From the IMG/VR virus record IMGVR_UViG_3300025917_000032, positions 1 to 45,623 of that record: a stretch of DNA of 45,623 nucleotides. One strand, given 5' to 3'. This document shows, piece by piece, positions 8,021 through 32,518 of this stretch. Numbering within the stretch: position 1 is the stretch's first letter; the number at the start of each line of letters is the position of its first letter. A program made the position numbers and the translations under genes. The notes under the pieces were generated by a model. It was not told the origin of the DNA and did not search any database. It saw nothing but the letters and a program-made list of their open reading frames with translations. The stretch is from a virus.

Positions 8021-8062
8021 CGGGCGGCGCGGACTCCCGTGCAAGGAGCCCAACGCCGCCCG
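8021..8062 (-). terminator. strong hairpin upstream of lysis cassette
   Basis: CGGGCGGCG (8021-8029) pairs with CGCCGCCCG (8054-8062), and an inner CTCC/GGAG pair can extend it. On the minus strand it is followed by TTTCG, a short U-run, so it is at best a weak intrinsic terminator or an attenuator. It lies about 28 nt before the lysis start codon and shares its 3' arm with the element at 32446-32470. Confidence 0.55.
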
Positions 8063-8075
8063 TAAGACGGCCTGC
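8051..8075. repeat. leader element, copy 1
   Basis: This 25-mer recurs at 32446-32470 with two mismatches, both T/C. In each case it includes the arm of a strong hairpin placed about 25-30 nt before a start codon. Similarity continues upstream in a GCGGAA..CTAACG block (about 8120-8140 and 32498-32515). Outside the genes, 7993-8137 holds nothing else obvious. Confidence 0.6.
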
Positions 8076-8137
8076 CCGATTGTCTGCGCGCCTGCGTCGG
8101 CGCGCCCGTCTAATGTACCGCCGTTAGGCGGTTTCCG

Positions 8138-11100
8138 CTATAACGCGCCGCCCGTTGGCGGACAGAACGCGTTCGCGATCGCGCTGTTAGCGCTCGGCGA
8201 CCACCCGGTGAGCGTCCCCCATACGAGGAAGAACACCTGTACCGTCGATGAGCTCTGGAGAAACCGAAAGGTCATCGTGGTCGACGTCGTGGCCGAGCCC
8301 GTGATCTCCGTTGTGGGCGGCGTCGAGGTGCCGGCCTTCAAGTGCCATGTGACGCCGCTCGGCGTTCCTGCGGCCGGGGCGATCGTGATGCTAAAGCTCT
8401 GCGACGGCGCATCATAGTCGACGCTGCTGATCGTGGGCGTCGGGATGGTGGCTGCCGTGGTCGCCGTCAAGAACGCGGTCGTCTTGGCCGATTCGCCGCC
8501 CGAGGTCGAGACGCCGGAATACTGCCAACTGTCGTGCTCGGCTGGCGACAAGCCCGAGTGCGTAAGCGTTTGTGTTCCGCTCGCGAGGGCGGTGCGGGCG
8601 GTGTCGGGCGGCAGGACGACGCCGTTCTTGTAGGTCCGGATGAAGTCGAAGTTGCTGATCGAGCTCGGCATGACGACATGGTTGGTCACGCTCGAGGAGG
8701 TGACGGACGTGTTGGCCGCGCTCGCCGGCGCACTGGGCGCGACCGGCGTCGCCCGCACCGTCCGGAAGTTGATGAAGCCCGAGGTTTCGCTGTGCGCGTC
8801 GTATGCCACAAAGGTCGCGATCTCCACCAGGTTGGTGGCGTCAATCGCTTGGCCCTGGACCACCGCTTCGGGGCCTGAGGTCAGGGTGAAGTTGTCGATC
8901 TGCGGCATCTCCGTGCCCACGTTGTAGACGGAGATCGGGCTTCCGGGGTCGGTGGCCGACGTGTACACCTTGCTCCACCAGCGGACGTAGCGCGTCGTGA
9001 AATCCCATTCGACCGTGTACGTGTTCGCGCTCGCGCCGGCCATGACCGTGATGGTGGGCGCGGGCGGCGAGAAGATGGGGACGCTGATGACGAAGGTCCG
9101 GCCCGCGAACCGGTGGCCCGTCGTGCTCACGGTGATGGGCGTGACTGCGACGTCGGTGGACGGGCTCGCGACGATGCGGTCCGCCCCAGACGCCGTGCCG
9201 ACCACCGTGGTCGAGGCGCCGAACGCGAGATCGCCGGTTCGCCGCGACTGGACCGAATACTCCATGTGATCGAAGAAGGGCGTGTTGGGCGCGGTCCAGA
9301 GGGCGGTCACCCACGCCACCACCGCCGCCGGATCGCCCTGCACGTTGGCCGTCAGGTGAAAATCGTCGGGAACCGCGATGTCATCGAAGGGACCGCCTAG
9401 CCCGCCCAACGCCGCGAAGCTCGATTGAATGGCACTCACGCCCGGCACCATCACCAAAAACTCCTGTCCCCAGAGATCCTTGCCCACGATGGCACCGGTG
9501 GCAAGCGTACGCCCGGCGATCGGCGAGCCCGTGTCGTTCCCGGCCGCGTCCATGATGACGCGGCGATCCGTATACTGCCGGGTCGCAATGCCCACGCGGT
9601 CGCCGATCGTGAGCCAGGGATAGGCGAGCACCGTCTTGACCTTCCAGAGCCGAACGCCGCTCGAGAAGGCGCCCAGCATCATGAGTGCTAAGTTCTGCGC
9701 CTCGGGCCCGTCGTTCCATTGGCAGAGAAGATCCGGCAGCACCATGACATCGAACAGGTTGGCGAGTCCGTATCCCAAGAACGCGTTGAAGTCCACGAAC
9801 TGCGCCTGATTGGCGAAGCCGCCCGCCGTGGTGCTCGTCCCCGCGAAGTCGAAGTTGTAGCCGGCCTGCACGATCGGCATGCGCCGGTCCATGCCGGTTG
9901 GCGTGTCGAGCGAGACGTAGTGCCGCTCATCCCATGTGATCGAGGGGGCTTGATCGCCAAAGATGTCGGCGAACTGAATCTTTCCCTGATCGGCGAACAC
10001 GACGCCGCCACAGTGGAGGGCGAGTGCCGCCAGCACATCAGCCGCCGCGGTGCCGTTGTTCTTCCCGATCAAAGAGGCCGTCGTGAAGCGGCCCGTCGCG
10101 GGCGGCAGCGTGCCGCGGTAACGCGCGGGGACCTGTGCCTGATTGTCGCGCACATCGCGGAACACGTCGGCAAAATCCTCGGCGGCGTACTGCACGTCCG
10201 AGCGCTGGAACACGTCCGAGTGTACTTCGAACGTATCGCCGATCGACGGCACGTCGGCGGTCGTCGGCACGAGAATGAGGAAGGCGTTGCTCGTGTTCGC
10301 GGCGAAGGAGGGCGGCGCCAAGATCGTAATCGATTGCCCGTTCAAGGTGCCCGAGGTCCAGTAGGTGCGCCATGGCCCAGCGCCTTGGAGGAGCCCGTTG
10401 GGTTGCATGAGTCCTGCGGCGAAAGGCGTCCCGGTGACCTGCACGGTCACGATGACGGGGCCAGCGCCCGAGGTCGACACCGCCTGCACGGCGTAGGAGC
10501 CGACGCCTTGGCCCTGCTCGCTATTGAGCGGCACGGACGCCTTGAGCCGGTCGGTGACGCCCAAGAAGGTGAACGCTTCTTGATCGTCCGAAGGGTCGCG
10601 CTGCTCCAACCGGAAGCTGTCCTTGTACCAGCGCATCTTGCTCACGCGATTGACCGCGTAGATGCGCGCTTCAACATTCTGCGGCGCGTACTGCGAGGCG
10701 AGCTGCGTCGCCAGATCGCGCGCGTCCTGTGTGAGCCGGTAGATGGGCAGCTTGAGCTCGGCGATCTCGGACTGGCCCGTGGTCGGATCGATCGTGCACG
10801 AGGACTGCATGTCCCCGATGTAGCGGAAGGTCGAGAAGGTTTGCCGGGCCTCGAGCGTGATCGCCTGGATATAGGGTGTCGCGTAGTGCGTCGCACCCGT
10901 CGAGGACGTGAGCGTGGCCGTCACCTTGTAATACCGCTGCAAGAACGTCGTGCCGGCGATGATGAGCGTATCGATGGCGCCGACCGTCCGGTGCACGCCA
11001 TCCGTCGACACCACGTCCCCATCCTGCACGGTGCCCACGGTGATGTCCGAGGAGCCGAAGTTGTCGCTCGAGGCGTGGAGGTTGTACGTCACGGACTCCG

Positions 11101-12184
11101 AGCCTAACGCAATGTCATCGAACCGGCACTCGACATCTTCCGTGGGAACCACCTCGAGGTCGAGCGGCACGGCGACGGTGCCGTTGGCCGGATACGTCTG
11201 GATCGCGAGCACATGGTAGGGCACCGCCCAGAGCTGCGCGTCGAGCACGCGCGCTGTCCCGATGCGCGATATGCCGAAGGATCCGCTCGCCACGGTCATG
11301 GCCCCAAAGCCGGGGACAGCGCCGGTCGTCTCCTGCGGATCGGGGCTGTGGTTGATGTCGAGCGGCGAGAAGCCGGAGAGGATGTTCGGCGGGTACGGTC
11401 CGATCGAATGATCACCGCCCGTGCCGCCCGTGGCGACGCGCCAGAACGTCGTGTTGTTCAAGTTCGCGACCAATGCGTTATCGGCGCAGCCGATCCAGAG
11501 GCTATTCCCATTGACGCCGCTCGGAATGGTGATCACCACCGAGAAGCCTTTGGCGACAAAGAGCGTGCTCACGCCTGCGATCTTGACGGTCGACTGCCGG
11601 AGATTGCCCGAGTTGTCGCGGCCATCGCCGGTGTTCGACAGCACCCAGCCGGGCGAGAAGCGAATCACCTGCTTCGACAAGTCAAGCGTAAAGAGCGCGC
11701 CCGTGGGCGTGAGCTGATCCGAGACGATGTCGATCGGCGACGCGATCGGCTGGCGCTTCCAATTCTGATCGAACGCCGTCACCTGAAAGCGCACCGTTCC
11801 CTTGAAGGCGCCGGGCGTGCCGCCGCCCCACGAGCCGAGATAGAGTTGGAGCGACGCCAGCACGATCTCGGTTTGCGAGGCGAAGATCGTCGGATCGGGG
11901 AAAAAGTCGAGTGCGCATCCGCTGCCGACGCCAATCTGCTCGACGTGGTTATGCACCGAGTGGTCGGTCACCTGCGAGAAGATGGTCGATGTGCCGCTCG
12001 GTGCGAGCGACACCTGCCCTTCGCTCGACACCGCGATGTCGCTCGACTTGACGACGGTCGCTTGATTCCAGTCGGCGGCACTCGCCACGCCGGCCGACGC
12101 TTCGACCGTGACGATGTCCGCCTCCAAGTCCATGCACGGATTCAAGCGCTGGCTCGCTTGGATGATGCTATCGATGGGCAGCAT
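8138..12184 (-). CDS. tail tip / host-recognition protein (lambda J-like position)
   Basis: The largest gene, 1348 residues, starting at ATG 12182-12184 (TGATG overlap). The N-terminal half is beta-rich tail-hub-like sequence; the C-terminal third (about 1000-1348) has repeated fibronectin-III-like modules with Trp and Ser/Thr-rich strands. Location after the distal tail gene and before lysis, and this size, match the central tip protein that recognises the host in lambda-like siphoviruses. No J-specific motif is claimed. The C-terminus is the likely receptor-binding part. Confidence 0.75.
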   Translation of the reverse strand: MLPIDSIIQASQRLNPCMDLEADIVTVEASAGVASAADWNQATVVKSSDIAVSSEGQVSLAPSGTSTIFSQVTDHSVHNHVEQIGVGSGCALDFFPDPTIFASQTEIVLASLQLYLGSWGGGTPGAFKGTVRFQVTAFDQNWKRQPIASPIDIVSDQLTPTGALFTLDLSKQVIRFSPGWVLSNTGDGRDNSGNLRQSTVKIAGVSTLFVAKGFSVVITIPSGVNGNSLWIGCADNALVANLNNTTFWRVATGGTGGDHSIGPYPPNILSGFSPLDINHSPDPQETTGAVPGFGAMTVASGSFGISRIGTARVLDAQLWAVPYHVLAIQTYPANGTVAVPLDLEVVPTEDVECRFDDIALGSESVTYNLHASSDNFGSSDITVGTVQDGDVVSTDGVHRTVGAIDTLIIAGTTFLQRYYKVTATLTSSTGATHYATPYIQAITLEARQTFSTFRYIGDMQSSCTIDPTTGQSEIAELKLPIYRLTQDARDLATQLASQYAPQNVEARIYAVNRVSKMRWYKDSFRLEQRDPSDDQEAFTFLGVTDRLKASVPLNSEQGQGVGSYAVQAVSTSGAGPVIVTVQVTGTPFAAGLMQPNGLLQGAGPWRTYWTSGTLNGQSITILAPPSFAANTSNAFLILVPTTADVPSIGDTFEVHSDVFQRSDVQYAAEDFADVFRDVRDNQAQVPARYRGTLPPATGRFTTASLIGKNNGTAAADVLAALALHCGGVVFADQGKIQFADIFGDQAPSITWDERHYVSLDTPTGMDRRMPIVQAGYNFDFAGTSTTAGGFANQAQFVDFNAFLGYGLANLFDVMVLPDLLCQWNDGPEAQNLALMMLGAFSSGVRLWKVKTVLAYPWLTIGDRVGIATRQYTDRRVIMDAAGNDTGSPIAGRTLATGAIVGKDLWGQEFLVMVPGVSAIQSSFAALGGLGGPFDDIAVPDDFHLTANVQGDPAAVVAWVTALWTAPNTPFFDHMEYSVQSRRTGDLAFGASTTVVGTASGADRIVASPSTDVAVTPITVSTTGHRFAGRTFVISVPIFSPPAPTITVMAGASANTYTVEWDFTTRYVRWWSKVYTSATDPGSPISVYNVGTEMPQIDNFTLTSGPEAVVQGQAIDATNLVEIATFVAYDAHSETSGFINFRTVRATPVAPSAPASAANTSVTSSSVTNHVVMPSSISNFDFIRTYKNGVVLPPDTARTALASGTQTLTHSGLSPAEHDSWQYSGVSTSGGESAKTTAFLTATTAATIPTPTISSVDYDAPSQSFSITIAPAAGTPSGVTWHLKAGTSTPPTTEITGSATTSTTMTFRFLQSSSTVQVFFLVWGTLTGWSPSANSAIANAFCPPTGGAL

Positions 12185-13047
12185 CAGACGTAGAGCACGG
12201 GCGCCACGGCCTCGAGATCGAGCGAGACGGTTCGGTGGATCGGGTCGACGACGGGCTTGTACTCGGTGTCGCCGGTCGTGCGGAAGAGCCGCATGAGTCC
12301 CGCGGCGGTCGCATCGGAATCGTCGTGGCAGATCCACCACGGCTGCTGCTGGCGAAGCAGGCGGTTCACCTGCGTTTGAAGCGCCGGATAGGACGCGCCG
12401 TCCAACGATTGAATCCGGATCTGGTAGAGGTCCCAGAGCACCGGCCGCGAGGTCACGCGCACGCCTCCCTGACTCACCTCGTTTTTGAGGTACTTGAGCG
12501 ACTGATGAAAGTCGAAGGCGCCCGGCGCGTCCATGAACTCCGGGAAGCGATACAGGTCACCCAGATAGAGCCCCGTCACGATCGGTGCGAAGCCGCTCGA
12601 GGCCGGGATGTCGAACGAGAACGCGCGGTGCGTCACCGGCGTAAACGTCTTCCACCAGACGCCCTCCGAGGTGAGGCAGCCATTGGTGTCCGTTGGGAGG
12701 CCGCCCGGCGTCGAGGGCGGCGTCGCCGTCAGGATCGTGGTGCCATAGGTGACGCCGTCATCGCTCGCGATGAGCGAGATCGATTTGCCCGACAGGTTGT
12801 GCCCGCGGTCCAACACCAGAATGCTCACTTCGGCCGTCTGGCCGCTCCCCAAGTCCGTCCGAAGTTGCGTCAGGATGTTGCTCGCCGATGGCGAGCACCA
12901 GGTGAGGTCGCGGAGATTATCCGCCACGCGCCAGACTTCATGCCCTGTCGCCTCCGTCGCCGGCGCGTTCATGAACACCGTGGCGGCGGGATGCAGCACC
13001 ACGTTGTCGTAGAGATTGTCGGACAGGACAAGCGGTTGGTTGGGCAT
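12184..13047 (-). CDS. tail protein, distal-tail-like
   Basis: A 287-residue protein. The first half is a beta-sandwich-like region (W-W-K-T-F near 130 and an F-S-F-D-I strand); the second half (about 150-287) looks like a tail-ring domain with many aromatic residues. It sits between the lectin-like protein and the tip protein, as Dit-type proteins do. The specific family is not certain. Confidence 0.65.
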   Translation of the reverse strand: MPNQPLVLSDNLYDNVVLHPAATVFMNAPATEATGHEVWRVADNLRDLTWCSPSASNILTQLRTDLGSGQTAEVSILVLDRGHNLSGKSISLIASDDGVTYGTTILTATPPSTPGGLPTDTNGCLTSEGVWWKTFTPVTHRAFSFDIPASSGFAPIVTGLYLGDLYRFPEFMDAPGAFDFHQSLKYLKNEVSQGGVRVTSRPVLWDLYQIRIQSLDGASYPALQTQVNRLLRQQQPWWICHDDSDATAAGLMRLFRTTGDTEYKPVVDPIHRTVSLDLEAVAPVLYV

Positions 13048-13050
13048 CGC

Positions 13051-14181
13051 TCAGACTCCGTAGGTGGTGTCAAGGCGCGATTCTTCGCTCGAGTTCCCGC
13101 CCGCTGTCGCGATGAATACGATCTCGCTGATCGGGCCTTGGCACTCGTGCGAGAGCCCGGAGTCCGTTCCGATGAACGCTGTCCCGGCGTCCGAGAGCCG
13201 GGTGCCGGTCTGCGAGCCGCCCGAGAGCGTCATGGTGACGGCGGCGCCATCGACGTGGAGCGTCGGGTTGTTCGTGAGCACCGAGGCGTCGTACGAGATC
13301 ATGTACTCGTGCGGTGTGCCGAACACGACCACGCCCGCCGCCGTATCCCACTCGATGATCGTGCCGCCCACCTTGTTGATCTGGAAGCGGAGCCGGCCGT
13401 CCGTCTTGACCCAGAGCCACGCCATCGGCGTCGCGAAGAGGTAGGCATCCACGGTCGGCGTGACGACGCTCCCCACGTTGGCGACGATGAACCGCGTGAA
13501 GGCGGCCGCATCGACCATCGTGAAGTGCAGGGAGTCGCCCGTCTGGAACTCGACGCCGGGCTGGCCGCCGATCGCTGTCGCGCGATAGACCGGTTTGGCC
13601 GCGGTGCTCGTCTGGCTCGCGGAGACGCCGCCCACCTGATCCAGCCAGCTTCCGACGAGGGCACCATCGGTCAAGGCGAGCGTATTCGCGGCCCACCAGA
13701 ACTGCCGCGTCACCCCGGCGGCTGCGACCGTGATGCCGACCGTCGCGGTCACGCTGCCCACGGTCGCGGTAATCGTGCAGGATCCGGCGGCGACCCCTGT
13801 GACGAGTCCGTTGGTGTCCACCGTGGCGATCGTGGCGTCGCTCGTCGTCCATGTGACGGTCGCGGTCACCGGATTGCCGCTCGCATCTTCCGGCGTCGCC
13901 GTGATGGACAGCGTGCCGCCGATCGCGATGGTGGACGTGGTGGGCGTCACGGCAATGCTCACGACCGAGCCCGCGGCCACGACGGTCACGGCGCACGTCG
14001 CCGTTTTCGTTTCGCACGTCGCGGTGATCGTGCAGCTCCCGACCGACACCGCCGAGATGAGGCCCGCGCCGCTCACCGTCGCGATCGTCGGATCGCTCGT
14101 GCTCCATGCCACCACGCGACCCGTGAGCGGATTGTTGGACACATCCTCCGGGGTCGCTGTCTCTTGTAGCGTCTGCGCCAT
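13051..14181 (-). CDS. tail fibre-like protein with Big2 and lectin-like domains
   Basis: A 376-residue protein. Residues 1-70 and 71-155 are two bacterial Ig-like (Big2) domains, each with the W-[ST]-[ST]-S-D-x-[TI]-I-A-T-V signature. Residues 158-376 form a LamG/concanavalin-like domain (W-W-A-A-N near 160; G-x-P-G-V-E-F near 205). The first Big2 domain lacks its usual opening strand, so the start may be misplaced or the gene trimmed. It probably displays a glycan-binding head on the tail. Confidence 0.75.
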   Translation of the reverse strand: MAQTLQETATPEDVSNNPLTGRVVAWSTSDPTIATVSGAGLISAVSVGSCTITATCETKTATCAVTVVAAGSVVSIAVTPTTSTIAIGGTLSITATPEDASGNPVTATVTWTTSDATIATVDTNGLVTGVAAGSCTITATVGSVTATVGITVAAAGVTRQFWWAANTLALTDGALVGSWLDQVGGVSASQTSTAAKPVYRATAIGGQPGVEFQTGDSLHFTMVDAAAFTRFIVANVGSVVTPTVDAYLFATPMAWLWVKTDGRLRFQINKVGGTIIEWDTAAGVVVFGTPHEYMISYDASVLTNNPTLHVDGAAVTMTLSGGSQTGTRLSDAGTAFIGTDSGLSHECQGPISEIVFIATAGGNSSEESRLDTTYGV

Positions 14182-14187
14182 GTGCCG

Positions 14188-16008
14188 TTACCGAGGGATG
14201 AAGATGGCGGAATCCACGTTCCAGAGCCCGATCGTGCTGCCCAACGTGTAGGAGCCGGTGAGCGTGGCCTGATCGTCCATGAGCGCCCACGTCTTCCCCG
14301 GGGGCGGCGCCTGGTTGATCGTGACGAGGAAGTTGGTCGTCGCATCAAAGACGGTGCTCGACGACTCGACCCGCATGAGCACGAGCGCCGTGAACGGCGT
14401 GTTGGTCGTCCCGTCCTCGGAGAACACGCGGCCTAACACGCTGACCGCCACGCCCGAGGGCTGTGAGGCGCCGGTCGCCGAGGCGTACACAAACTTTTGC
14501 GGGGTCAGGCTGTCGACCGGCTCGCCTAACGGCACGTCAAACGCGGCCTCCCATCGCGCCTGAATCGGCGAGACATTCCAGAACTGGTTCGCGGGATCGG
14601 AGAAACACTTCTTGGGCTGGCCCCGATCAACCAGGCAGAGCGACGCCGCGTAGTTGGTCATCATCGACCGATCGTCGGGCGTCGTATAGTTGTGCTGCCC
14701 GGCGGTGCGAAACGCGGCGGACAGTCCCGAGACGCCCGCGTGCGGCTCGGCGTTGTTGAAGGCCGGCGTATAGCCGAGCTCCACGATGGCACCGGCCGCC
14801 AAGCGCGTCACCGCGGATGTGCCGATCGTGTCGTTGGGGCGGTTCGATTGGAAGATGTTGAGCGCCCCTTCCATCTGGCAGCCGCCGGCAGCGATCGCAA
14901 ACTGATCATCCTGGCTCGTCGTGAAGTTGGCGAGATTCGGGAAGTAGATCGTCCCTGGATACGTCTGGCGGTAGAGCGTAAAGAGCGCCGCGATGTCGTT
15001 CACGTACTGCGTGCTGCTCGAGGTGCCGTATTCGACGGACTGGAAGTGCATGTTGCTCGCCGAATGCGAGTCGAAGAACACGCCGTCGTTCTGCGAGCCC
15101 AAGATCTGCCCCATCCGGAAGACCTGAAAATCCTTGCCGTCCTGGCTCCCCGGATTGGTCGCCCACGCCCAGTCGGATTCCGACTCGAAGAAGATGCGGT
15201 TAGCGAGCGTGATCGTGCCGTCGCCTAACGTGAAGATGGCGCCCCCGGTCCCGCTCTGCGCGGTGCCCGTGTAGTTGGTCTGAATCGTCGTCTGCGAGGG
15301 GATGCCGGTGACGGTCACCGTCTGGCTAAACGCCGGGCTCGTGAAGCTCACCGTATAGCTGCTGCCAATCTGGAAAGCATTGGACGCCGCGACGCCCAAC
15401 CGCGCCTGCGAGAGCTGCTGCTTCAAGTTGGATGACTGCTTGCCGAGCGTGATCAGCCCCGTCGCCGAAAGCGACGTGACGACGGCTTTGTTGTTCTGCT
15501 GGCCCGAGGCGGCATGGAGGTAGATGTTCTCGAGCGTCCGACCGTTCGCCGTGGCCCAATCGGAGGCGACCGTGCCCCACGAGACGGTCGCGTTATCGGA
15601 TGGTTCTTGCCCCGTCGCCTCCGTGAAGTGGTGGAGCGCGTAAGGCGTACAGATGCAGTCCGGGAAGAGCGCCTTAAGCGTGGCCGTGGGCGGCGACATC
15701 GCGTAGCGCATGCGGTTGAGCGGGCCAGCTTCCGCGAAGTTGTAATCGCTTTGCGGGAGACTGCCGCTCGAAAACCACGTGCGCCCCCATCCCATGTGCG
15801 TCAAAGCGCCCGTCACCACGGGAGCGGGCGCGTCGAGCGTCACCGAGGTCGTACTCAGGACGACGTGATCGACCGGCGTCTGCGTGCCGCCGACATCGAT
15901 CGTGAGTGTCACCGCCGAGGGCGAGAGCACCAGATGGTCGACCGCTGGCCCTAAGACGACGTAGGTCGAGCGGTCGCGGACGGCGATGCGCGGGCGCCGG
16001 ATCGTCAT
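14188..16008 (-). CDS. tail-associated glycoside-hydrolase-like protein
   Basis: A 606-residue protein. After short beta-rich repeats (about 20-65) the main part resembles a TIM-barrel glycosidase of the putative GHL15/GH114-like kind: D-G-V-F-F-D-S-H-S near 310 and G-C-Q-M-E-G-A near 375 supply the carboxylates expected at strand ends. The C-terminal 120 residues are beta-rich. It lies between tape measure and lectin-like genes, so it probably degrades a cell-surface polysaccharide. The family name is inference. Confidence 0.65.
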   Translation of the reverse strand: MTIRRPRIAVRDRSTYVVLGPAVDHLVLSPSAVTLTIDVGGTQTPVDHVVLSTTSVTLDAPAPVVTGALTHMGWGRTWFSSGSLPQSDYNFAEAGPLNRMRYAMSPPTATLKALFPDCICTPYALHHFTEATGQEPSDNATVSWGTVASDWATANGRTLENIYLHAASGQQNNKAVVTSLSATGLITLGKQSSNLKQQLSQARLGVAASNAFQIGSSYTVSFTSPAFSQTVTVTGIPSQTTIQTNYTGTAQSGTGGAIFTLGDGTITLANRIFFESESDWAWATNPGSQDGKDFQVFRMGQILGSQNDGVFFDSHSASNMHFQSVEYGTSSSTQYVNDIAALFTLYRQTYPGTIYFPNLANFTTSQDDQFAIAAGGCQMEGALNIFQSNRPNDTIGTSAVTRLAAGAIVELGYTPAFNNAEPHAGVSGLSAAFRTAGQHNYTTPDDRSMMTNYAASLCLVDRGQPKKCFSDPANQFWNVSPIQARWEAAFDVPLGEPVDSLTPQKFVYASATGASQPSGVAVSVLGRVFSEDGTTNTPFTALVLMRVESSSTVFDATTNFLVTINQAPPPGKTWALMDDQATLTGSYTLGSTIGLWNVDSAIFIPR

Positions 16009-17603
16009 AAGACGGACCGGGCGGGCACGTTGCGGTCCGCAATGCGCGTGAGCTTGCTATTCAGGTTGGCGACCGTCCGGCCATCGAGCTTGAGGTCACC
16101 GCTCACCACGATGTCGATCGTCTGCTGCTGATACGTGGCACCCGAGTTGGCGCCTAACTGCGCGGACGCCGCGCCTGCGCCGCCCGAGGAGCCGCGGCCG
16201 CCGCCCGAGGACGAGCCGCCCATGTCCAAGATGCGGGAGATCGCGGCCGCGCCTGCGATGTCGAGCGCGGCGGATCCCAGATACTTGGCGGCAATGGGCG
16301 GATTCATCCAGTTGGAGGCCGCCATCGCGAAGTCGTATTCGGCGCGCGCTTCCAAGGATTTGACCCACGGCTCGGCTAACGCCTGCTCGACTTGCTTCAA
16401 GTTGCCCTTGCCCGAGACGATCGCATCGACCGCGGAGTGAAAGCCTTCGCTCAATGCTTGCGTCGCGACGCCCGCCCACTTGCCGGTCCGCTCGAAGGCA
16501 TCCTGCGCCTGATTCGCCATGAGCACGAAGGACGCACCGACGCGGCCGTTCGCTTTGATGAGTTGTTCCATCGCGTCGATGTTAGGCGCGCGGAAGCTCA
16601 TGGGCCGCGTCTTCGAGCCGGGCGCTGCTTCGGCCGCGCCTAACGGGTCTTGTCCCGTGGCGCTCACCTCGTTGGCGTAGCGCATGTCGAGCACGAGGTC
16701 ATTCGCGAACTTGGCGATTTTCTTATCGTTCTCGGCCGTCTCGCGCGCGAGCTCCGCTTCCACCCGGCGAAGCGCCACCATGCGCTTGTGCGCCGCTTCC
16801 TCATCATCGAGGACCTTCTGGTGCGCCTTCTCGCGCGTGTCCTCCTCGGCGGCCTGCTTGTCGACGAGCGCATCGATCTGCGTGAGTTCGGCCGAGATCC
16901 GATCCAGCGCCTTTTGCGCGCGACTCACGGGGTCCTGTCCGATCGCTTTCGCGATGCCGCGGCCCAGCAACGACAGCGGATCGCCGCCCATTGTCTGCGC
17001 GACGACTGCCGCCTTGATCCGCGCCTCCGTCAGCTTCCGGATGTCCTCGATCTGCGTTAGCTGCAGTTCATGTTGCTTGGACAAGGACTCCGAGAGGTTG
17101 TCATCGAAGGCGAGCTTGTCCATCTCCATGCGGAGCTTTTCGGCTGCGTCGGCCGCTTCGGTGAAGATCCGGACGATGCCGAAGATCGCGATCCCCAGCG
17201 CGCCCGCATAGGCCGCGGTCCCGCCCATGCCCAACGTCATGTTCGCGAGGGCGCCGATTAACTGGTCCACGTTCCGCGCGCTCACGCCAGCCGACGACGC
17301 CATGATCGCGAACCCGCGCGCGCCGGACTCCGTGGCGCGGCCCATCGTCCGGCTTGAAGTATCGACGCTATTCGCAAAGTCGCGCGTGATCGAGTCGATC
17401 CTTCGCAACTGGTCCCCGGTCGCGTTTAACTCGACCGCATACTTCCTGACATCCTCGGCTTCCGCGCGGAACGCGCGCTGCGCTATGGCGGAGCCCGAGT
17501 TTGCGGCCTCCGCCATGCCCTTCAATTGCGCTATCATCTCTTGAACCTGATAGAGCGCTTCCTGGGTATCGGCAACGACCTTGATGTTGATTGGCTGGGC
17601 CAT
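16005..17603 (-). CDS. tape measure protein
   Basis: A 532-residue protein, mostly helical. There is a Gly/Ala-rich hydrophobic segment (about 125-150), long charged coiled coils (170-310), and a Gly/Ser-rich linker (470-490) before a beta-strand C-terminus. Position just after the chaperone genes and composition are typical of the protein that sets tail length. At about 1.5 angstrom per residue it would give a tail of about 80 nm. Confidence 0.85.
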   Translation of the reverse strand: MAQPINIKVVADTQEALYQVQEMIAQLKGMAEAANSGSAIAQRAFRAEAEDVRKYAVELNATGDQLRRIDSITRDFANSVDTSSRTMGRATESGARGFAIMASSAGVSARNVDQLIGALANMTLGMGGTAAYAGALGIAIFGIVRIFTEAADAAEKLRMEMDKLAFDDNLSESLSKQHELQLTQIEDIRKLTEARIKAAVVAQTMGGDPLSLLGRGIAKAIGQDPVSRAQKALDRISAELTQIDALVDKQAAEEDTREKAHQKVLDDEEAAHKRMVALRRVEAELARETAENDKKIAKFANDLVLDMRYANEVSATGQDPLGAAEAAPGSKTRPMSFRAPNIDAMEQLIKANGRVGASFVLMANQAQDAFERTGKWAGVATQALSEGFHSAVDAIVSGKGNLKQVEQALAEPWVKSLEARAEYDFAMAASNWMNPPIAAKYLGSAALDIAGAAAISRILDMGGSSSGGGRGSSGGAGAASAQLGANSGATYQQQTIDIVVSGDLKLDGRTVANLNSKLTRIADRNVPARSVL

Positions 17604-17605
17604 AA

Positions 17606-18235
17606 TCAGTCTTTCGCAGTGGCGATCGCGTTAGTCATCTCGTGTGCGAACACAGCCTGCAAGCGTGTCTGCACGACGCGCTCTGCGATGGCGTAAAAGT
17701 CGAAGACCGGCGTTGGCGCCGAGCGCGCGAAATGAAAGAGGAGCCGAATGTCTCGCTTGCCTTTGCCTGTACGCTGGTAGATGCCGGGCGTGGCACCGGA
17801 GTCAATCACGAAGGTGCGGTCCGCGCCCTTGCCATCGTCGCCTAACGCAAGGTCACGCGGACGCTGGCCGCGTGGCGCCACTCTCTGCGGGAACGCAGCG
17901 GATGACGTGATGGCGAGGTTTAGGCCGCCATGCGGCCTCTTGGTCTCGCCGGTTTGGAACTTCCACCAGTGATCGAACTCAGGCGGGATGACAACTTCCG
18001 CCTGGATCGGGTCATCTTCCTTTTTCGCGAATCGCGGAATCTTGATGCCGTATCGCACTTGGTAGTCCTGCCGGACGGTGAACCGCTCGCGGAGCCCCGT
18101 CCGAATCGCGTCCTGAATGAGAAGTGCGAGACCGTTTACCGTGCGCGATGTCGCGAACGGAATCTGTGTCCGCTCGAGATCGTTCATGCTCTCGGTGAAC
18201 GCGCCGATTTCCACGTCGATCGTTATACCTGGCAC
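17606..18235 (-). CDS. minor tail protein, unknown
   Basis: A 209-residue protein between the chaperone frameshift product and the tape measure. It has mixed alpha/beta composition, with a basic central part (P-R-F-A-K-K-E-D-D near 70) and no membrane segments. It could be a tail completion or assembly protein; no family is recognised. Confidence 0.7.
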   Translation of the reverse strand: MPGITIDVEIGAFTESMNDLERTQIPFATSRTVNGLALLIQDAIRTGLRERFTVRQDYQVRYGIKIPRFAKKEDDPIQAEVVIPPEFDHWWKFQTGETKRPHGGLNLAITSSAAFPQRVAPRGQRPRDLALGDDGKGADRTFVIDSGATPGIYQRTGKGKRDIRLLFHFARSAPTPVFDFYAIAERVVQTRLQAVFAHEMTNAIATAKD

Positions 18236-18236
18236 G

Positions 18237-18605
18237 CTACTCCTTCTTCATGGCTTCCTCGTGGATCTTGCCCTGCTCGCTGTCGATCGCCGCGAACGCC
18301 GACAAAAGTTGCGGGTCGCGCCATGACGCAGCGGGCACCGCACTCGGATACTCCTTGGCGATGTAGTGCGTCCGAAGCCACGACTTGACTTCGGTCGTGA
18401 GCACGATGCCCCACGGACACCGCGTGAATCGTTCATATCGCCCTGGCCCCAGTTTGATCTCGCCGCCCGGCACGTTTGGGAAGCATGGCTCGCGCTTCTC
18501 TCCCGGCAGTGAGCACCGAAACCGCGCTCGGACCGATTCGACGCAGAGGCCGCATGTTAGGCTGCCGAAGACGTCGGACCGTCCGAGCCGGACGGCGAGT
18601 CGGAG
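18237..18605 (-). CDS. tail assembly chaperone, frameshifted T part of G-T
   Basis: Open in the -1 frame relative to the upstream chaperone, with no stop from the slippery site to TAG 18237-18239 (122 residues). A separate GTG start at 18473 is possible but has no clear ribosome site. Fused to the first 118 residues of G it would make a 240-residue G-T protein, as in lambda and most siphoviruses. Unusually, the junction part contains four or five cysteines in a C-x2-C pattern. Confidence 0.75.
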   Translation of the reverse strand, partial: LRLAVRLGRSDVFGSLTCGLCVESVRARFRCSLPGEKREPCFPNVPGGEIKLGPGRYERFTRCPWGIVLTTEVKSWLRTHYIAKEYPSAVPAASWRDPQLLSAFAAIDSEQGKIHEEAMKKE

Positions 18606-18958
18606 TTTTTTTCCTGCTCCTCCGAGAGCCCGCTCCGATCGGACAACCGGCTATAGATGAGCAGCACCAAGAGCGGCGGCAGCGACCGGAAGTGTTTCGC
18701 GTGGTCGTAGGGGCCGCCGTGTTCCGCATCGATGCCGTCGATTGTCACGAGCTGCTGCTTGACGAGGACCGTCGCGGCCGCGCGCCGTGTTTCCTCGGTC
18801 GGCCACGCGTCGCACCACGTGGCCCACGTCTCCACGTCGAGCGGCTTGCACACGGCCGTGAGCCCGGCATAGGGATGCACGTCTGGCGTCTCGTCCTCCG
18901 CATAGCTACTCAGGTCGAACCGAACCGTCTCGGGCAATATCGTTAGGCGAAAGGTCAT
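18557..18958 (-). CDS. tail assembly chaperone G
   Basis: A 133-residue protein between the tail tube and tape measure genes. It has an acidic helical body and a Ser/Asp-rich end. Residues 116-118 are encoded by GAA AAA AAC, giving a slippery heptamer 16 codons before the TAA stop. The G product guides tape-measure folding and is not in the virion in known systems. The stop lies in a GCCTAAC word. Confidence 0.85.
   Translation of the reverse strand: MTFRLTILPETVRFDLSSYAEDETPDVHPYAGLTAVCKPLDVETWATWCDAWPTEETRRAAATVLVKQQLVTIDGIDAEHGGPYDHAKHFRSLPPLLVLLIYSRLSDRSGLSEEQEKNSDSPSGSDGPTSSAA
18605..18611 (-). other. slippery heptamer A-AAA-AAC for -1 frameshift
   Basis: Read on the minus strand in the G frame this is GA[A AAA AAC], the X-XXY-YYZ form used for efficient -1 frameshifting. 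Moving back one base continues without a stop for 122 codons, while the zero frame stops after 16. The sequence downstream is GC-rich and could form a stimulating structure. Confidence 0.85.
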
Positions 18959-18962
18959 CGGC

Positions 18963-19943: not shown

Positions 19944-19979
19944 GGCTCACGCCTCCGTTAGGCGAGTGAAAGAGAGGAT

Positions 19980-20498
19980 TCATGACAGCGGCTCGCGGGT
20001 GCGAACTTGGAACTTGGCGCAGATGCCGTATTCGTAGGTGATCGTGCCGTCCGCGCCTTTCCGCGCGTTCGGGTTGGCCTCGAGGTCGATCGCGACCGTC
20101 TGTCCATCGGGCGGCGCGATCTGGTGGATCGTCTTGCCGCTCGAACGCGACGAGATCGGAAACGTGTCGAGCCAGAGGAGGAGCGCTTCGGGGATGCACT
20201 CCAGGTGCGTGTCCATCGCCGCAGCGTCCGTCGTCTTATGGAGCCACGCGATTTCCACCTTGTGCATCGCCTGCCGAATGCCGGCCGCAATGATCTCGGT
20301 GCCCGTCTTGGGCGTTCCCAGCCACCGCACCGAGACGACCGGGTAGCTGGTCCGGTTGGTTTCCCGCTCCCACGACCACCACGGTTCCACGGTGAACGTG
20401 CTGACGAGCGACACCGCGTGCGCCGTCCCCACGGTCGTAATCGCGGCGCCCAACGTCGAGGTTGCGGCCACGAGCTCATCCAAGAGGGATTTGATCAT
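19980..20498 (-). CDS. tail terminator / completion protein
   Basis: A 172-residue alpha/beta protein directly before the tube protein, with a 36-bp gap to it. It shows an S-W-E-R-E motif near 43-47 and hydrophobic strands near 105. Position and size match the tail terminator (lambda U-like). The family is inferred from gene order. Confidence 0.65.
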   Translation of the reverse strand: MIKSLLDELVAATSTLGAAITTVGTAHAVSLVSTFTVEPWWSWERETNRTSYPVVSVRWLGTPKTGTEIIAAGIRQAMHKVEIAWLHKTTDAAAMDTHLECIPEALLLWLDTFPISSRSSGKTIHQIAPPDGQTVAIDLEANPNARKGADGTITYEYGICAKFQVRTREPLS

Positions 20499-23026: not shown

Positions 23027-23028
23027 CG

Positions 23029-26303: not shown

Positions 26304-26304
26304 C

Positions 26305-26724: not shown

Positions 26725-26727
26725 GGG

Positions 26728-26901: not shown

Positions 26902-26903
26902 GG

Positions 26904-27392: not shown

Positions 27393-27424
27393 CGCTCAAG
27401 TCCTCAGGAGAAAGTCGGAGGGTT

Positions 27425-27450
27425 GCGGGCCGACCGTGAGGCCGGCCCGC
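27425..27450 (-). terminator. hairpin after capsid gene
   Basis: GCGGGCCG (27425-27432) pairs with CGGCCCGC (27443-27450), seven bases after the capsid stop. There is no U-run after it on the minus strand, so it may slow polymerase or protect the capsid mRNA 3' end rather than end transcription. Confidence 0.45.
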
Positions 27451-27456
27451 GACGGA

Positions 27457-29970
27457 TTACCGCGCCTGCAACGTCACCCACGGTGCGAGGGTGTTGGTGC
27501 CGTTCTTGGGCGTGAGCGTCGAGTTCCAGAGCGGCTGCCCGCCGACCCGGTGCTCGAACCGGAAGGCCTGCTCCGCCGTCAGGAACTTGACGTGGATCGA
27601 CTGCGCCATCTGGACGCCGCCCTTCTCGACGACGAGGTACTCTTCCATCGCCGCGTAGACGATGTCGCCCACGGTGCCCACGGTCGCCGAGTACTCGATC
27701 GGGATCACCGGGTTGCCGAAGAGCGTCGCGTAGGGAGCGCCCGAGAGTCCGCCCGGAGGCGTGTAGATCGGGATCGTGGTGTTGGGGATGAACATCTGCA
27801 GCAGTTGCGGCTCGACGTCCTGGTTGATGAACCAGACGGCGTTCTTCCGGAGCGGCGCCCACATGCGCGAGCGCATCTTGATGACGTTGGCCGCGACGAC
27901 GGTGCCGGCCGACTGCCCGGATTCCTTGGACACCTGCACGACCGCGGGGCCGTTCAGGATGCCTAACAGCGTCCCGGCGCCGCCGCCGTTCAGGATATTG
28001 TCCTCGAGCACGAACGTCATTTCGTCCTGGAACGCCATGAGGGCGTACGTCTCGAGCGCCGCGGCGTCGGACAGGAGCTCATCGGTCGCGAAGAACACGG
28101 CGAGGAGCTTTTCCGGCTTGACTTCGATCCGGCGGAACTTCGGGTTGGAGCCCGTCGTGGCGTCGGCTTCGTTCGCCCAGAATACCTGGACACCGCCCCA
28201 CCGCTGGCCGTTCGCGCGGCTCGTTTCGTTGACGGCGGGGATGACGAGCGAGCCTGCGGGGCCGCTCATCGGAATCCGACGGACGCGCTTCAGGACCTCG
28301 CCCGCCTGATACGTGCGGAAGATCAACTGCTGCGAGAACTCGGGGTAGACGAGGAATCCGCCATCGGCCTGAACCCCTTCGCTCGCGCCGGCGGGACCGG
28401 CCAGCGGCAGAAGCCGCGGGTCCATCGCGCCACCGGGCACCGTCGCGCGGCGCACGGCCATGAGGAAGTCGCCGCCGCCATGGAACGGCGCCTTGGTTTC
28501 GCGCTGCTCGCCGACCGTGATGACGGGCTTGGCCGTCGCGCGGTAGCCGTCCAACAGCTCCGCCTTGACGGTGTCGAGCGACTTGCCCGCGGCGACCCAA
28601 TCGGTCACGTCTTTCACGGACTTGCCGTGCGCGTTGGCGAGCGCCAAGAACGCATCGACGTTGCTTTGTAGTGCGGCCCCGGCGGGGGCCGCCGTGTCGT
28701 TAGGCACGGGAATCTCCTTGGCCTTAGGGGCCGGTTCACTCGGGGAAGGGGGAATCGACCCGATCACGGCCCCGTCCGTGGTCGCGCGAGACTGCTCGTC
28801 GTCCGGCGGCGTGTCGTCCTGGTCGGTATCGGCCGGCGCCGGTTTCTTTTTCTTCTTCTTGCCGTTAGGCGGCGCGTCGTCCTCGTCCTTGTCGCCGTCG
28901 TTAGGCGGAGGATCGGCTGCGAGGACGGTTAGGCCGGGAGTGCCGCGCACATCGGCGACGGTGATCGAGCCGTTGTAGATGTGGCCGAGATCCATGACCG
29001 AAGCTGCGGCCGGCGCGATCACGTAGGTCTGCGCGGCGATGAGGCTGGGCAGTGCCGGACGCCCATCATCGCCGATCGCAGCGGGCGTCTCGAGCGCGGC
29101 GACCTTCCGCCGCGCCGATCGGCTACCGCCGGTGAGCTGCGCGAGCACATCGTCGAGCGTGTCGATACGATCCGCCATCCCAACGGCAATGGCGTCCTTG
29201 GCGGTGAGCACGCGACCTTGGCCGTAGTCGCTTCGCACAGTGGCAACGCTTACGTCGCGGCCTTTCGCGACCGCGCGGAGGAAATCGCTGTAAATCGCTT
29301 CGATCCGGCCTTGGATGTATTCGGCGGCTTCATCGCCGAGCGGCCCGTACGGGTTGCCCTCGACTTTGTACTTGCCGGCCGAGATGATCGTGGCCTTGAC
29401 GCCTTCCTGTTCGAGCGCGCCCGACTCATCGAAGTGCACAGTATAGACACCGATCGACCCGGCCTGCGCGCTCGGACTCATCGCGATTTCCGAGCACTGC
29501 GACGCGAGCCAGTAGCCGGCGCTCGCGGCCAGGTAATTGACAGCGGCGATGATCGGCTTTTTTTCGCGGCCCGCGAGAATCTTGGATGCCAGTTCCGGCA
29601 CGCCATCTACCGCGCCGCCCGGCGTGTCGAAGTCGAGCACAATCGCGCCAATCGCCGGATCGTCGAGCGCCGCGTCCAACTGCGCGCCTAACAATTGCGC
29701 GGATGTGCCGCCCGACATCTCGGTCATCATGTTCATGCGCGGCGCGATGACGCCGTAGACGGGGAGCACGGCGACCACGCCCTTGGTCTTCATCGTCGGC
29801 TGGCGGTTCGCGGCCGCGGCGGTGCGGACATCTTCCTCGGCCACGCGACCGCCCGACGCCCGAAGCGCGAGCAGGTCCATGATCGCACGGCCTTTCGCCG
29901 GGTCGATCGCCCACGGTGTCGCGGACACGGCGCGCAAGATTGCGTCGTATTTCACGGCCTTGACGTTCAT
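27457..29970 (-). CDS. S49 protease-scaffold-HK97 major capsid fusion
   Basis: A single 837-residue open frame. Residues about 60-280 are an S49 (SppA-type) protease: Ser150 in A-A-S-A-G-Y and Lys202, 52 residues later, the same spacing as the Ser/Lys pair of B. subtilis SppA. Residues 355-425 are an acidic/Lys/Pro-rich linker; 430-500 is a helical scaffold-like part. From about 535 the HK97-fold capsid begins (G-G-F-L-V-Y-P, then E-K-L-L-A-V-F-F-A-T-D-E-L). The protease usually cuts scaffold out of a separate capsid protein; here it would have to cut itself free. Confidence 0.8.
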   Translation of the reverse strand: MNVKAVKYDAILRAVSATPWAIDPAKGRAIMDLLALRASGGRVAEEDVRTAAAANRQPTMKTKGVVAVLPVYGVIAPRMNMMTEMSGGTSAQLLGAQLDAALDDPAIGAIVLDFDTPGGAVDGVPELASKILAGREKKPIIAAVNYLAASAGYWLASQCSEIAMSPSAQAGSIGVYTVHFDESGALEQEGVKATIISAGKYKVEGNPYGPLGDEAAEYIQGRIEAIYSDFLRAVAKGRDVSVATVRSDYGQGRVLTAKDAIAVGMADRIDTLDDVLAQLTGGSRSARRKVAALETPAAIGDDGRPALPSLIAAQTYVIAPAAASVMDLGHIYNGSITVADVRGTPGLTVLAADPPPNDGDKDEDDAPPNGKKKKKKPAPADTDQDDTPPDDEQSRATTDGAVIGSIPPSPSEPAPKAKEIPVPNDTAAPAGAALQSNVDAFLALANAHGKSVKDVTDWVAAGKSLDTVKAELLDGYRATAKPVITVGEQRETKAPFHGGGDFLMAVRRATVPGGAMDPRLLPLAGPAGASEGVQADGGFLVYPEFSQQLIFRTYQAGEVLKRVRRIPMSGPAGSLVIPAVNETSRANGQRWGGVQVFWANEADATTGSNPKFRRIEVKPEKLLAVFFATDELLSDAAALETYALMAFQDEMTFVLEDNILNGGGAGTLLGILNGPAVVQVSKESGQSAGTVVAANVIKMRSRMWAPLRKNAVWFINQDVEPQLLQMFIPNTTIPIYTPPGGLSGAPYATLFGNPVIPIEYSATVGTVGDIVYAAMEEYLVVEKGGVQMAQSIHVKFLTAEQAFRFEHRVGGQPLWNSTLTPKNGTNTLAPWVTLQAR

Positions 29971-31529
29971 CGCATGCCTCCGGTTAGGCGGTGCATGACG
30001 AGCGCCTTGGGCTTGCCGTTCTTTTTGGGCGGCTCCTCGTCGGACTCATCCTCGCTGCCGTCCTCGGGCGGCTTGCCTTCGTCCGCTTCCGATTCGGCGG
30101 TCGTGTCGACATTGACGGCGCGCGAGGACTGGCCTTCGGCGATGATGAGGGGCACGCCGTACTGTTCGGCCAGCTCGATTTCGGCCTTGCGCTCTTTCAT
30201 GATCTGCTCGAAGTCGACGCCCGTCTCCTTGCAGATGCGCGTGATGCTCGAGGCGCCCATGCCGACGAGATGTTCTTTCTCGCTGATGTCTTTCACGGGA
30301 TCGATCCACGGGAAGGCGCGCGGATGCCACGTCACATTCCAGTATTTCCGCTCGTCTAACGACGAGAGCGAGAGCGCGCCCGAGAGGAGCGACATGCGGA
30401 GCGCCCGCCGATAGATCGGCGTCAGCACCTTCCGCACAATGCGCTGCTGCATGGCCTGATAGACGGCGCGCTCGGCGAGCATGCCGACGCGGCCCGACGA
30501 GAACGACGTGTTATTGAGATCGCCCGAGAGCGAGATGTAGGAGACGCGGAGCGCGCTCGCGATCGACCGGAGGATCGCCTTATCGAAATGGTCGAAGGCG
30601 CTCGTCGGGTGCTTGGGATCCCAATCCTTGAACGTCTCGCCGGGGCCTAACCGCTCGATCGTGCCGGGGTTGGCTTCCCATTTGACGTTGCGCGCGCCCT
30701 CGCGCGGCTTGGCGGGGGGCGCCACATCCTGCGAGGTTTCGACGAATCCCATCTTGGCCGCCGACGCGCGCGACGCGACCAACTCGGATTCGCGATAGCC
30801 GCCTAACATCTTGAGGTCGACCACCACCGGCGCCATCCACGTCACGCCGCGCGACTGCATGGGGCGGCGTTGGATGAAGAGGTGGATGATGTCCTTGGCC
30901 GGGACGGGGAGGCGCTCTTTCCCCTGCGGGTCGGTCGGGTGCGCGGTCCAGAGGTGATAAAAGAGCGGGCGTCCCCATGCGTCCTGCTCGACACCCATCT
31001 TGATCGCGTTCTGGCCGGGGCCGGGCGTGACGTTGTAGTAAATGTCTAACTGATCCGCGTCGAACACCTGCACGGCGAACCCGAACGGATTGTCGAATCC
31101 GTCGACCATGCGGATCAGCACTTCGCCGTCCGTCGCCTCCGTCTCCACGGTCATGCGCTGGAAGTCGACCATCGTCGCGCGGCCGTCCACCGTGGGCGCT
31201 TCGCTGAAATCCTGCCACCATTGATCGAGGACGGGGTTGTCTGTCTTGTGCGGCGTGCCGCGCGAGGACTCGGCCTGCGGCTGCATCAGAATGCCGTCTT
31301 TGCCGACCACGTTCTCGCTGAAAATGGCCGGCACGGCTGCGGCGCTCGAATTGTTGATGACGAGCTCGCGGGCGCGATTCCGGAGCGTCTGCAAGTCGAA
31401 GCGGATGGTCATGTCGGCCGAGAGCCGCTGCATGACCCAGTCGTAATTCAGCCGATCGAAGGCGGCGCCCCGATAGAGCGACGCCTGCGGCTGCATCTCG
31501 CGGACAAGAGCGGCGAACGGGTTAGGCAT
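29967..31529 (-). CDS. portal protein (lambda B-like)
   Basis: A 520-residue protein. It has the portal family opening (residues 1-60 with R-G-A-A-F-D-R), the central S-I-A-S-A-L-R-V-S-Y-I-S-L-S-G-D segment near 330, and the long C-terminal acidic/Lys tail. It lies directly upstream of the protease-capsid gene (ATGA). It forms the dodecameric ring through which DNA enters the head. A lambda-type portal goes with the GpA terminase. Confidence 0.85.
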   Translation of the reverse strand: MPNPFAALVREMQPQASLYRGAAFDRLNYDWVMQRLSADMTIRFDLQTLRNRARELVINNSSAAAVPAIFSENVVGKDGILMQPQAESSRGTPHKTDNPVLDQWWQDFSEAPTVDGRATMVDFQRMTVETEATDGEVLIRMVDGFDNPFGFAVQVFDADQLDIYYNVTPGPGQNAIKMGVEQDAWGRPLFYHLWTAHPTDPQGKERLPVPAKDIIHLFIQRRPMQSRGVTWMAPVVVDLKMLGGYRESELVASRASAAKMGFVETSQDVAPPAKPREGARNVKWEANPGTIERLGPGETFKDWDPKHPTSAFDHFDKAILRSIASALRVSYISLSGDLNNTSFSSGRVGMLAERAVYQAMQQRIVRKVLTPIYRRALRMSLLSGALSLSSLDERKYWNVTWHPRAFPWIDPVKDISEKEHLVGMGASSITRICKETGVDFEQIMKERKAEIELAEQYGVPLIIAEGQSSRAVNVDTTAESEADEGKPPEDGSEDESDEEPPKKNGKPKALVMHRLTGGMR

Positions 31530-31803
31530 CGCCGTCCTTCCGGTGCGTCAGGAAGTACAATCCCTTCCACGCCATGCGGCCTAACGCTTCGAACCCGAAG
31601 CACGCGAGGTAAAAGAGGCCGCCCGAGGCGTACCACACGCGCGGGCCGATCGCGTGGAACGTCGCGAGGAACGCGGTCACGAGCGTCCAGCCGGCCAGGA
31701 GCGCAGCCACGGCGCCTAACTCGCCGCGCGCGGACCACACGGCGCGCGAGATGCGAGACAGCGACGCGCCCGTTAGGCGGGCGACGCGGGCTACTGATTC
31801 CAT
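31522..31803 (-). CDS. membrane protein in head module
   Basis: A 93-residue protein from ATG 31801-31803 with two hydrophobic segments (about 28-50 and 58-75). A membrane protein between connector and portal is unusual for a lambda-like head cluster; it overlaps both neighbours (13 and 8 bp). It could be an accessory gene acquired into the operon. No family is recognised. Confidence 0.6.
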   Translation of the reverse strand: MESVARVARLTGASLSRISRAVWSARGELGAVAALLAGWTLVTAFLATFHAIGPRVWYASGGLFYLACFGFEALGRMAWKGLYFLTHRKDGDA

Positions 31804-32387
31804 TGCCAATTCGCGCTGCCGGGGATGGCGGCGCCGGGCATCGGGCCGAACTGGATTTCGACGGGCGGGTTCGAGCCGCCGCCAAAGAGTGCCTGCACTT
31901 CCCACGCGAAGCGGTTCCGCTCGGTGCGAAGCTCGGCCAGGGTCAGCATGTTGAACGAGCGCCCGTCAACCGCGTAGGAATTGACGGCGCGGACGTTCCC
32001 GTTGACGCGCGACTGGATCTCCTGCTCGAGCAAGCCCAGCATGATCTCGGCGAACGAGCGCTGGTCGGTGCCGTTGGCGACGAGCGGGTTGGGCTCCATC
32101 GTCACGGTGCCGAAGACGGCCGGGTACGTGTTGCCGGAGAGCGAGACGAGGCCGGTCAGGCGGTAGGGACCGGCGGCGACCGGCGCGCTCACGCTCGGCG
32201 CAACCGTCACCATCCAGAACGTGTTGGTGGGATCGGCCGCGGCCGAGAAATTGAGCGACGACTTGCCGGTGAGCTGGTACTGAAACGCCCAGCCTTCGCT
32301 CGGCGGGTAGTCGGCGAGCGTCTTGGTCCAACTCCAGGTCGTGCCTGGAATCAGCGTTGTCGGTTCCGTCGTCGGAACTTGGAACAC
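31791..32387 (-). CDS. head-tail connector candidate (gpW-like C-terminus)
   Basis: A 198-residue protein starting at GTG 32385-32387, just after the duplicated leader and hairpin. Residues 1-120 are beta-rich; residues about 145-175 contain T-L-A-E-L-R-T-E-R-N-R, a helix like the lambda gpW family of head completion proteins. A gpW-like protein next to portal is the usual order. The N-terminal beta domain is extra. Confidence 0.55.
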   Translation of the reverse strand: MFQVPTTEPTTLIPGTTWSWTKTLADYPPSEGWAFQYQLTGKSSLNFSAAADPTNTFWMVTVAPSVSAPVAAGPYRLTGLVSLSGNTYPAVFGTVTMEPNPLVANGTDQRSFAEIMLGLLEQEIQSRVNGNVRAVNSYAVDGRSFNMLTLAELRTERNRFAWEVQALFGGGSNPPVEIQFGPMPGAAIPGSANWQWNQ

Positions 32388-32418
32388 CGCGCGCGATGTC
32401 TCCGGGATGCACAGAAAA

Positions 32419-32455
32419 GGCGGCGCCGCATCTCGTGGTGAGATGCAACGCCGCC
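32419..32455 (-). terminator. intrinsic terminator or attenuator before head genes
   Basis: A two-part hairpin: GGCGGCG (32419-32425) with CGCCGCC (32449-32455), and inside it a perfect GCATCTC/GAGATGC stem with a 5-base loop. On the minus strand it is followed by TTTT (32418-32415). It lies 28 nt before the connector start codon, so it either ends the terminase/tRNA transcript or controls entry into the head operon. Confidence 0.65.
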
Positions 32456-32470
32456 CGCAAGACGGCCCGC
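32446..32470. repeat. leader element, copy 2
   Basis: Matches 8051-8075 at 23 of 25 positions, and like it combines a hairpin arm with a following conserved run. The two copies stand before the lysis and head genes, the two late blocks. Confidence 0.6.
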
Positions 32471-32489
32471 TAGATTTTTCCGCCGCCGA

Positions 32490-32518
32490 ATACTACGTCG
32501 TTAGACCGTTCCGCGCAA
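32490..32518 (-). promoter_or_regulatory. candidate promoter TTGCGC-17-TAGTAT
   Basis: On the minus strand, TTGCGC (32518-32513) and TAGTAT (32495-32490) are 17 bases apart. Transcription would start near 32483 and meet the hairpin at 32455 within about 30 bases. The spacer holds a CTAACG that is also present in the copy near 8125. Confidence 0.5.

Follow-up and report, generated by a model that had tools for sequence, protein, structure and literature searches.

Why would a phage genome carry two related hairpin-bearing sequences, one before its head genes and one before its lysis genes? The question is raised by a virus record of 45,623 nt (66% GC), which we analysed at its full length and refer to as the window. 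The window is probably a complete, circularly assembled phage genome of ~45.5 kb, because its ends (1-143 and 45481-45623) form a direct repeat with two mismatches in 143 bases, and the presence of an integrase gene suggests a temperate lifestyle. The minus strand carries nearly all of the genes, and both copies of the repeated sequence are also read on this strand. In minus-strand order, TerS and the terminase large subunit (TerL; 32993..34894) are followed by a small ORF of 83 aa (32724-32975), a tRNA-His gene (32642-32717), the copy termed B here, the genes for a head-tail joining protein (31791..32387; phrog_5774) and the portal (29967-31529), and that for a fused protease/major head protein (27457-29970). 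The tail genes come next, and then copy A, a holin-like 108-aa protein with one transmembrane stretch and a coiled coil (7666..7992), a second membrane protein (7421-7669) and an endolysin (6894..7424; the lysis families phrog_21825, 21357 and 9589). The head maturation protease and the major head protein form a single ORF of 837 aa. An inverted repeat, CGCGTTAG..CTAACGCG, was found at 35475-35510 in the 139-nt gap upstream of TerS, and is a possible terminase/cos recognition site.

A sequence-only reading of the window had reported that 8051-8075 (copy A) and 32446-32470 (copy B) match at 23 of 25 bases, and that each copy has a strong hairpin near a start codon; the count of 23 was confirmed on recheck, and both hairpins were found. 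The promoter-like TTGCGC-17-TAGTAT which it noticed at copy B is located at 32518-32490 on the minus strand (-35 at 32513-32518, -10 at 32490-32495), with a predicted RNA start at ~32483. The block common with copy A (32446..32470) ends in the 5' arm of a 17-bp hairpin (32418-32456, dG -33.5 kcal/mol), which is followed directly by a good T-run, TTTTCTG, and the whole (32411..32456) has the GC-rich hairpin and direct T-run of an intrinsic terminator. In copy A (block 8051..8075), the hairpin (8020-8063 within 8017..8063, dG -37.3 kcal/mol) has only the short T-run TTTCG. This copy is a marginal intrinsic terminator, weaker than copy B, with three T only and a T-run below the cut-off of our terminator detector. 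The copy B promoter aligns with a degenerate TAGCGG-17-TACATT in copy A (8112..8140, minus strand), the -35 of which is poor. The distance from the 3' end of the hairpin to the start codon that follows is ~28 nt in copy A and ~31 nt in copy B, and the predicted leader RNAs are ~73 and ~89 nt long with strong 3' hairpins. An extra second stem is clear in copy A only, copy B being a single dominant hairpin with a T-run.

The resemblance between the two copies exceeds what the composition of the genome would yield. The two blocks are the sole internal 25-nt pair with two or fewer mismatches on either strand of the window, and any such pair appeared in one of 20 Markov-shuffled genomes. The local alignment of the copies from the promoter region to the tail (~137 nt) scored 37, compared with 15.6 ± 2.8 for dinucleotide shuffles, none of 1000 of which reached 37, and with a maximum of 25 among ~1950 random same-strand pieces of the window. 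The similarity of the upstream part taken alone is weaker (14 versus 9.6 ± 1.9 in shuffles, with 30 of 1000 reaching 14). An Rfam search of the window returned the tRNA-His only, with no family for copy A or B above the gathering score. We also asked whether the shared core belongs to a mobile or recurrent element, and rejected this idea: none of the 25 exact matches of GCCGTCTTNCGGGCGGCG in IMG/VR had the element layout by inspection, and they look like chance coding matches.

The CTAACG upstream of copy A, which had been counted as part of the shared leader, is no evidence by itself, being an instance of a genome-wide motif. It belongs to the heptamer GCCTAAC (often extended to GCCTAACG), which occurs 55 times in the window against ~2 expected and is found in either orientation, also within coding DNA (e.g., 8122-8129, 28864-28934 and 31772-31778). 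The octamer GCCTAACG at 8122-8129 falls within the promoter spacer of copy A, and 30 of the 48 TTA codons of the window lie within GTTAGGC. The octamer was counted 3099 times in a 3.2-Mb metagenome-assembled genome (MAG) of Gemmatimonadaceae (L259/G001) and 5157 times in a 4.3-Mb MAG of Chthoniobacterales (L262/G002), versus 227 and 256, respectively, for the reversed control. Its distribution over 59 Gemmatimonadaceae genomes is bimodal, with more than 200 occurrences in ~17 of them (up to 4469) and 2-65 in the rest; G018, G022, G023, G030 and G048 are further genomes that we note for the octamer. In sampled octamer-rich genomes it is the top or a near-top over-represented 7/8-mer, and the same is true of the phage. 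We presume a resemblance to uptake-sequence or HIP1-type iterated motifs, and our literature search found no paper describing the octamer. From its distribution, it looks like an undescribed genome-wide motif of an on/off nature, uptake-sequence-like or HIP1-like; being common to phage and host, it points to the host of this phage and may be useful for assigning hosts.

Close relatives of the phage were found neither by portal or endolysin in IMG/VR nor by TerL in species genomes, and a DNA search of the phages in GenBank with window bases 1-20000 gave no match. The best TerL matches in IMG/VR and among GenBank phages have ~50% identity or less. The motif-based (octamer) host search led us to Gemmatimonadaceae genomes, and the closest TerL relatives turned out to be prophages in genomes of Gemmatimonadota, with 57% identity in G008 (Gemmatimonadaceae). 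G067, G089, G011, G025 and others are further TerL-related prophages of Gemmatimonadaceae, and more were found across Gemmatimonadota (e.g., G327 and G368, which belong to a separate family represented by 21 genomes). Since these genomes are mostly MAGs, the links between prophages and hosts rest on binning.

In these prophages, the stretch that separates TerL from the head genes frequently holds a cassette laid out as in copy B, namely TTGCG-17/18-TAnnnT, a leader of 32-54 nt, a strong GC hairpin and a T-run, with the start of the head gene 13-45 nt past the terminator. Listed as promoter-like site, leader, hairpin dG and T-run, this copy 1 reads TTGCGT-18-TAAACT, 47 nt, -23.9 and TTTTTT in G008; TTGCGC-18-TAAGCT, 50 nt, -38.0 and TTTTTT in G067; TTGCGC-18-TATACT, 52 nt, -28.4 and TTTT in G089; TTGACG-17-TAGACT, 54 nt, -27.2 and TTT in G327; and TTGCGG-17-TAGTTT, 35 nt, -39.0 and TTTT in G368. 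Terminators also stand in the gap in G011 (-33.2 and TTTT, with TTGCGC-17-CATGTT) and G025 (-23.8). The cassette is thus present despite TerL identities of ~33-57%. TTGCG-17/18-TAnnnT itself lies at the matching place in G008, G067, G089, G368 and copy B of the window; only six sites were found on both strands of 332 kb of phages and prophage regions, and 0.0012 are expected per 130-nt gap, the cassette detector having been tuned after the first examples were seen. No gap cassette was found in AT-rich IMG/VR relatives or in the Gemmatimonadota prophages G426, G247, G379, G275, G198 and G259. In two related marine phages, the Roseobacter phages CRP-406 and CRP-823, no gap at all separates TerL from the gene that follows, so this gene order can do without the device.

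In many of the related prophages, a small ORF of winged-helix-like type overlaps the stop codon of TerL or begins shortly after it, before the cassette or the first head gene, and it follows TerL directly at L344, L345, L295, L336, L338, L340, L349 and L352. Two of these ORFs gave weak MarR/IclR/Crp-like HTH matches, and we regard the ORF as a lead, a candidate late regulator that may act as an antitermination factor or a repressor. At the matching place the window has the unrelated 83-aa ORF instead. The tRNA-His of the window lies inside the late cluster, and the Gemmatimonadaceae relatives checked carry no tRNA there. One further candidate regulator, encoded at 17606-18235 in the tail cluster of the window and with a homologue upstream of TerS in G008 (L306 6392-7165), was rejected, as both genes code for a minor tail protein.

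A second copy was sought with a detector for a hairpin plus T-run on the late strand that was blind to gene position. It located a second strong terminator in G008 (29375), G011 (19293) and G368 (20798), in all three cases directly before the lysis genes, as copy A is in the window. The copies in these three prophages have a hairpin with a direct T-run. In the 39.5 kb of G368, the detector found no strong late-strand terminator besides copies 1 and 2; one additional site was detected in G011 and one in G008, the latter upstream of TerL and close to the tmRNA gene. Directly after copy 2, all three prophages encode a protein with a transmembrane stretch and a coiled coil, equivalent to window 7666..7992. 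In G008 and G011, this gene is followed by those for one more membrane protein and for an endolysin of the M15 or VanY type (PHROG lysis families), these being the two of the three prophages in which the endolysin was recognised. G327 and G025 have copy 1 only; a second copy was looked for in both and rejected, as the best local scores (25.5 and 22.5, respectively) do not stand out from background.

Copies from one phage are alike, and those from different phages are not. Local alignments of copy 1 with copy 2 scored 37 in the window, 35.5 in G008, 34.5 in G011 and 78 in G368, whereas all scores between phages fell in the range 8.5-21. Among the 105 possible pairings of the eight elements from these four phages, the only ones from which the pair is known, the true pairing ranks first (sum 185; next best 149.5). 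Paired copies have in common mainly the 20-25 nt just before the hairpin together with the lower stem, and in G368 the -35/-10 region and T-run are alike as well. Although the upper stems of the two copies are no longer alike in the window, G008 and G011, they can still pair in each copy, so it is the structure of the hairpin that is retained. The hairpin sequence drifts between phages, with both copies of a phage drifting together. The expectation that relatives would show similarity beyond the hairpin arms was therefore borne out for position and architecture, and for sequence within a phage only.

We consider that both copies are probably late-operon attenuators resembling the pR'-tR' of lambda and opened by a shared, putative antitermination factor. 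RNA polymerase would start at, or arrive through, the promoter just upstream of each copy, make a short leader of ~70-105 nt and stop at the intrinsic terminator, a few nt before the first head gene (B) or the first lysis gene (A). A single factor acting late in infection would then make the polymerase terminator-resistant at both copies, and the head and lysis operons would come on together. This factor would probably be a phage antiterminator that reads the shared part, i.e., the promoter, the leader block and the lower stem. What the analysis establishes is the anatomy of the copies, their statistical excess, their recurrence at two homologous places in four phages and the matching of sequence within each phage; from this we infer the starting and stopping of RNA at the copies, the regulated readthrough and the single factor. 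As the terminator stands 13-45 nt before the gene, there is little room for another promoter, and the operon would have to be reached by reading through. A terminator placed shortly before a gene and behind its own promoter-like site is best read as an attenuator, the expression of the gene needing readthrough. Where two attenuators have a phage-specific sequence in common, the action of a single factor on the pair is the best explanation. The recurrence of the pair, each time with private sequence, in three other prophages of the phylum suggests one factor for both gene sets, acting late. The sequence-only reading had named a late-phase attenuator or antitermination target among its options, and this option gains support from the promoter, leader and terminator at the same genomic place in diverged relatives and from the recurrence of the copy before the lysis genes in three of them. 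Against the attenuator reading stand the poor -35 and the three T of copy A, the single copy in G327 and G025, and the lack of either copy in G247 and G198, as well as the gapless gene order of the related marine phages, the failure of the Pfam and PHROGs searches to recognise an antiterminator in the window, and the small number of phages, four, that show the pair.

The copies might instead be ordinary terminators that insulate the modules at whose borders they lie, produced by duplication or kept similar through recombination inside each phage and involving no antitermination, with the late genes expressed via leakage or by processing of longer transcripts. Most copies do have a strong hairpin and T-run, phages recombine at module borders, and the two copies of G368 are nearly identical, as after a recent duplication. 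Nevertheless, an insulator would be expected after the upstream gene and before the promoter, whereas here the hairpin follows a promoter-like site, with much the same spacing in several phages, and lies a few nt ahead of a gene whose transcription has to pass through the hairpin. We therefore regard insulation as unlikely.

Two explanations based on RNA itself appear weaker still. One is that the leader RNAs fold and modify the polymerase with no phage protein, like putL and putR of HK022. HK022 has two ~70-nt putRNAs sharing similarity (PMC9378689), just as each genome here has two related elements of ~70-105 nt just after promoter-like sites and alike within the phage. This is improbable, however, as the hairpins end in a T-run before the gene in the fashion of terminators, a clear second stem is seen in copy A only, and the elements of different phages lack a conserved sequence, whereas the action of put depends on defined residues. 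The other, also put forward in the sequence-only reading, is a pair of related small RNAs acting in trans, and indeed the predicted ~73- and ~89-nt leaders with their strong 3' hairpins would be stable. It is disfavoured by a hairpin sequence that varies between phages and tracks the partner copy only, by placement always directly before an operon and by the lack of an Rfam family, and we judge it very improbable.

We know of nothing on the timing of late genes in phages of Gemmatimonadota, and our literature search found no paper on such phages. A paired attenuator whose copies match within but not between phages would be the signature of one specific factor reading both. With the pair, one would have a direct way, from sequence, to search for that factor and to identify late operons in phages that have not been cultured.

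Among known systems, the attenuators proposed here most resemble pR'-tR' with Q (lambda and phages 21 and 82), in which a late promoter is soon followed by an intrinsic terminator and the late genes need readthrough. By sequence, such a promoter-then-terminator stands before late genes in copy B of the window, G008, G067, G089, G327 and G368. There are two cassettes per phage here, before the head and the lysis genes, whereas the lambda Q type has a single cassette, before lysis. Among the window ORFs searched in Pfam and PHROGs, neither Q nor N nor any other antiterminator was recognised. Q proteins are very diverse, and an unrelated factor is possible. Q-type logic involves a binding site embedded in the promoter, for which 21Q uses 6-bp direct repeats (PMC6606751). 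The aligned cassettes show no evident repeat or conserved motif in the -35 to -10 spacer, and, in an alignment judged by eye, the 20 nt that follow the -10 contain no -10-like motif, as would mark a pause element in the initially transcribed region, that is consistent from one cassette to the next. Given the lack of a recognised Q gene in the window and of identifiable Q-binding or pause elements, we do not claim membership in the Q family.

The pairing itself recalls nutL and nutR of lambda, of which there are two copies per phage, similar within a phage and different between phages, as is the case here. Unlike nut, however, the present copies precede late rather than early operons and have no boxB-like small loop, the hairpin itself being a terminator: instead of a boxA and a small boxB stem-loop there are hairpins of 34-49 nt ending in T-runs. 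A boxA-like CTTAC occurs only in the window (exact in A, CTTGC in B) and in copy 1 of G008, and a boxA/nut reading was rejected because this block is not kept in G011, G368 and G327. HK022 likewise has two related ~70-nt leader elements after promoters, putL and putR (PMC9378689), but those are antiterminators of early operons with two stem-loops, as opposed to a hairpin plus T-run before late operons. The proposed factor would also be comparable to AlpA of Pseudomonas aeruginosa, which is reported to bind in the promoter and let the polymerase pass an intrinsic terminator downstream (PMC9371919). AlpA serves a single chromosomal operon, and no AlpA-like gene was recognised here. More tentatively, as a possibility that we think somewhat unlikely, this may be a late-control system not yet described, in which a phage-encoded factor unrelated to Q or N opens the head and lysis operons together. 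Its site would then be a block, specific to each phage, that extends from just ahead of the terminator hairpin into the hairpin base, and the two copies would evolve in concert with the factor, as nut sites do with N.
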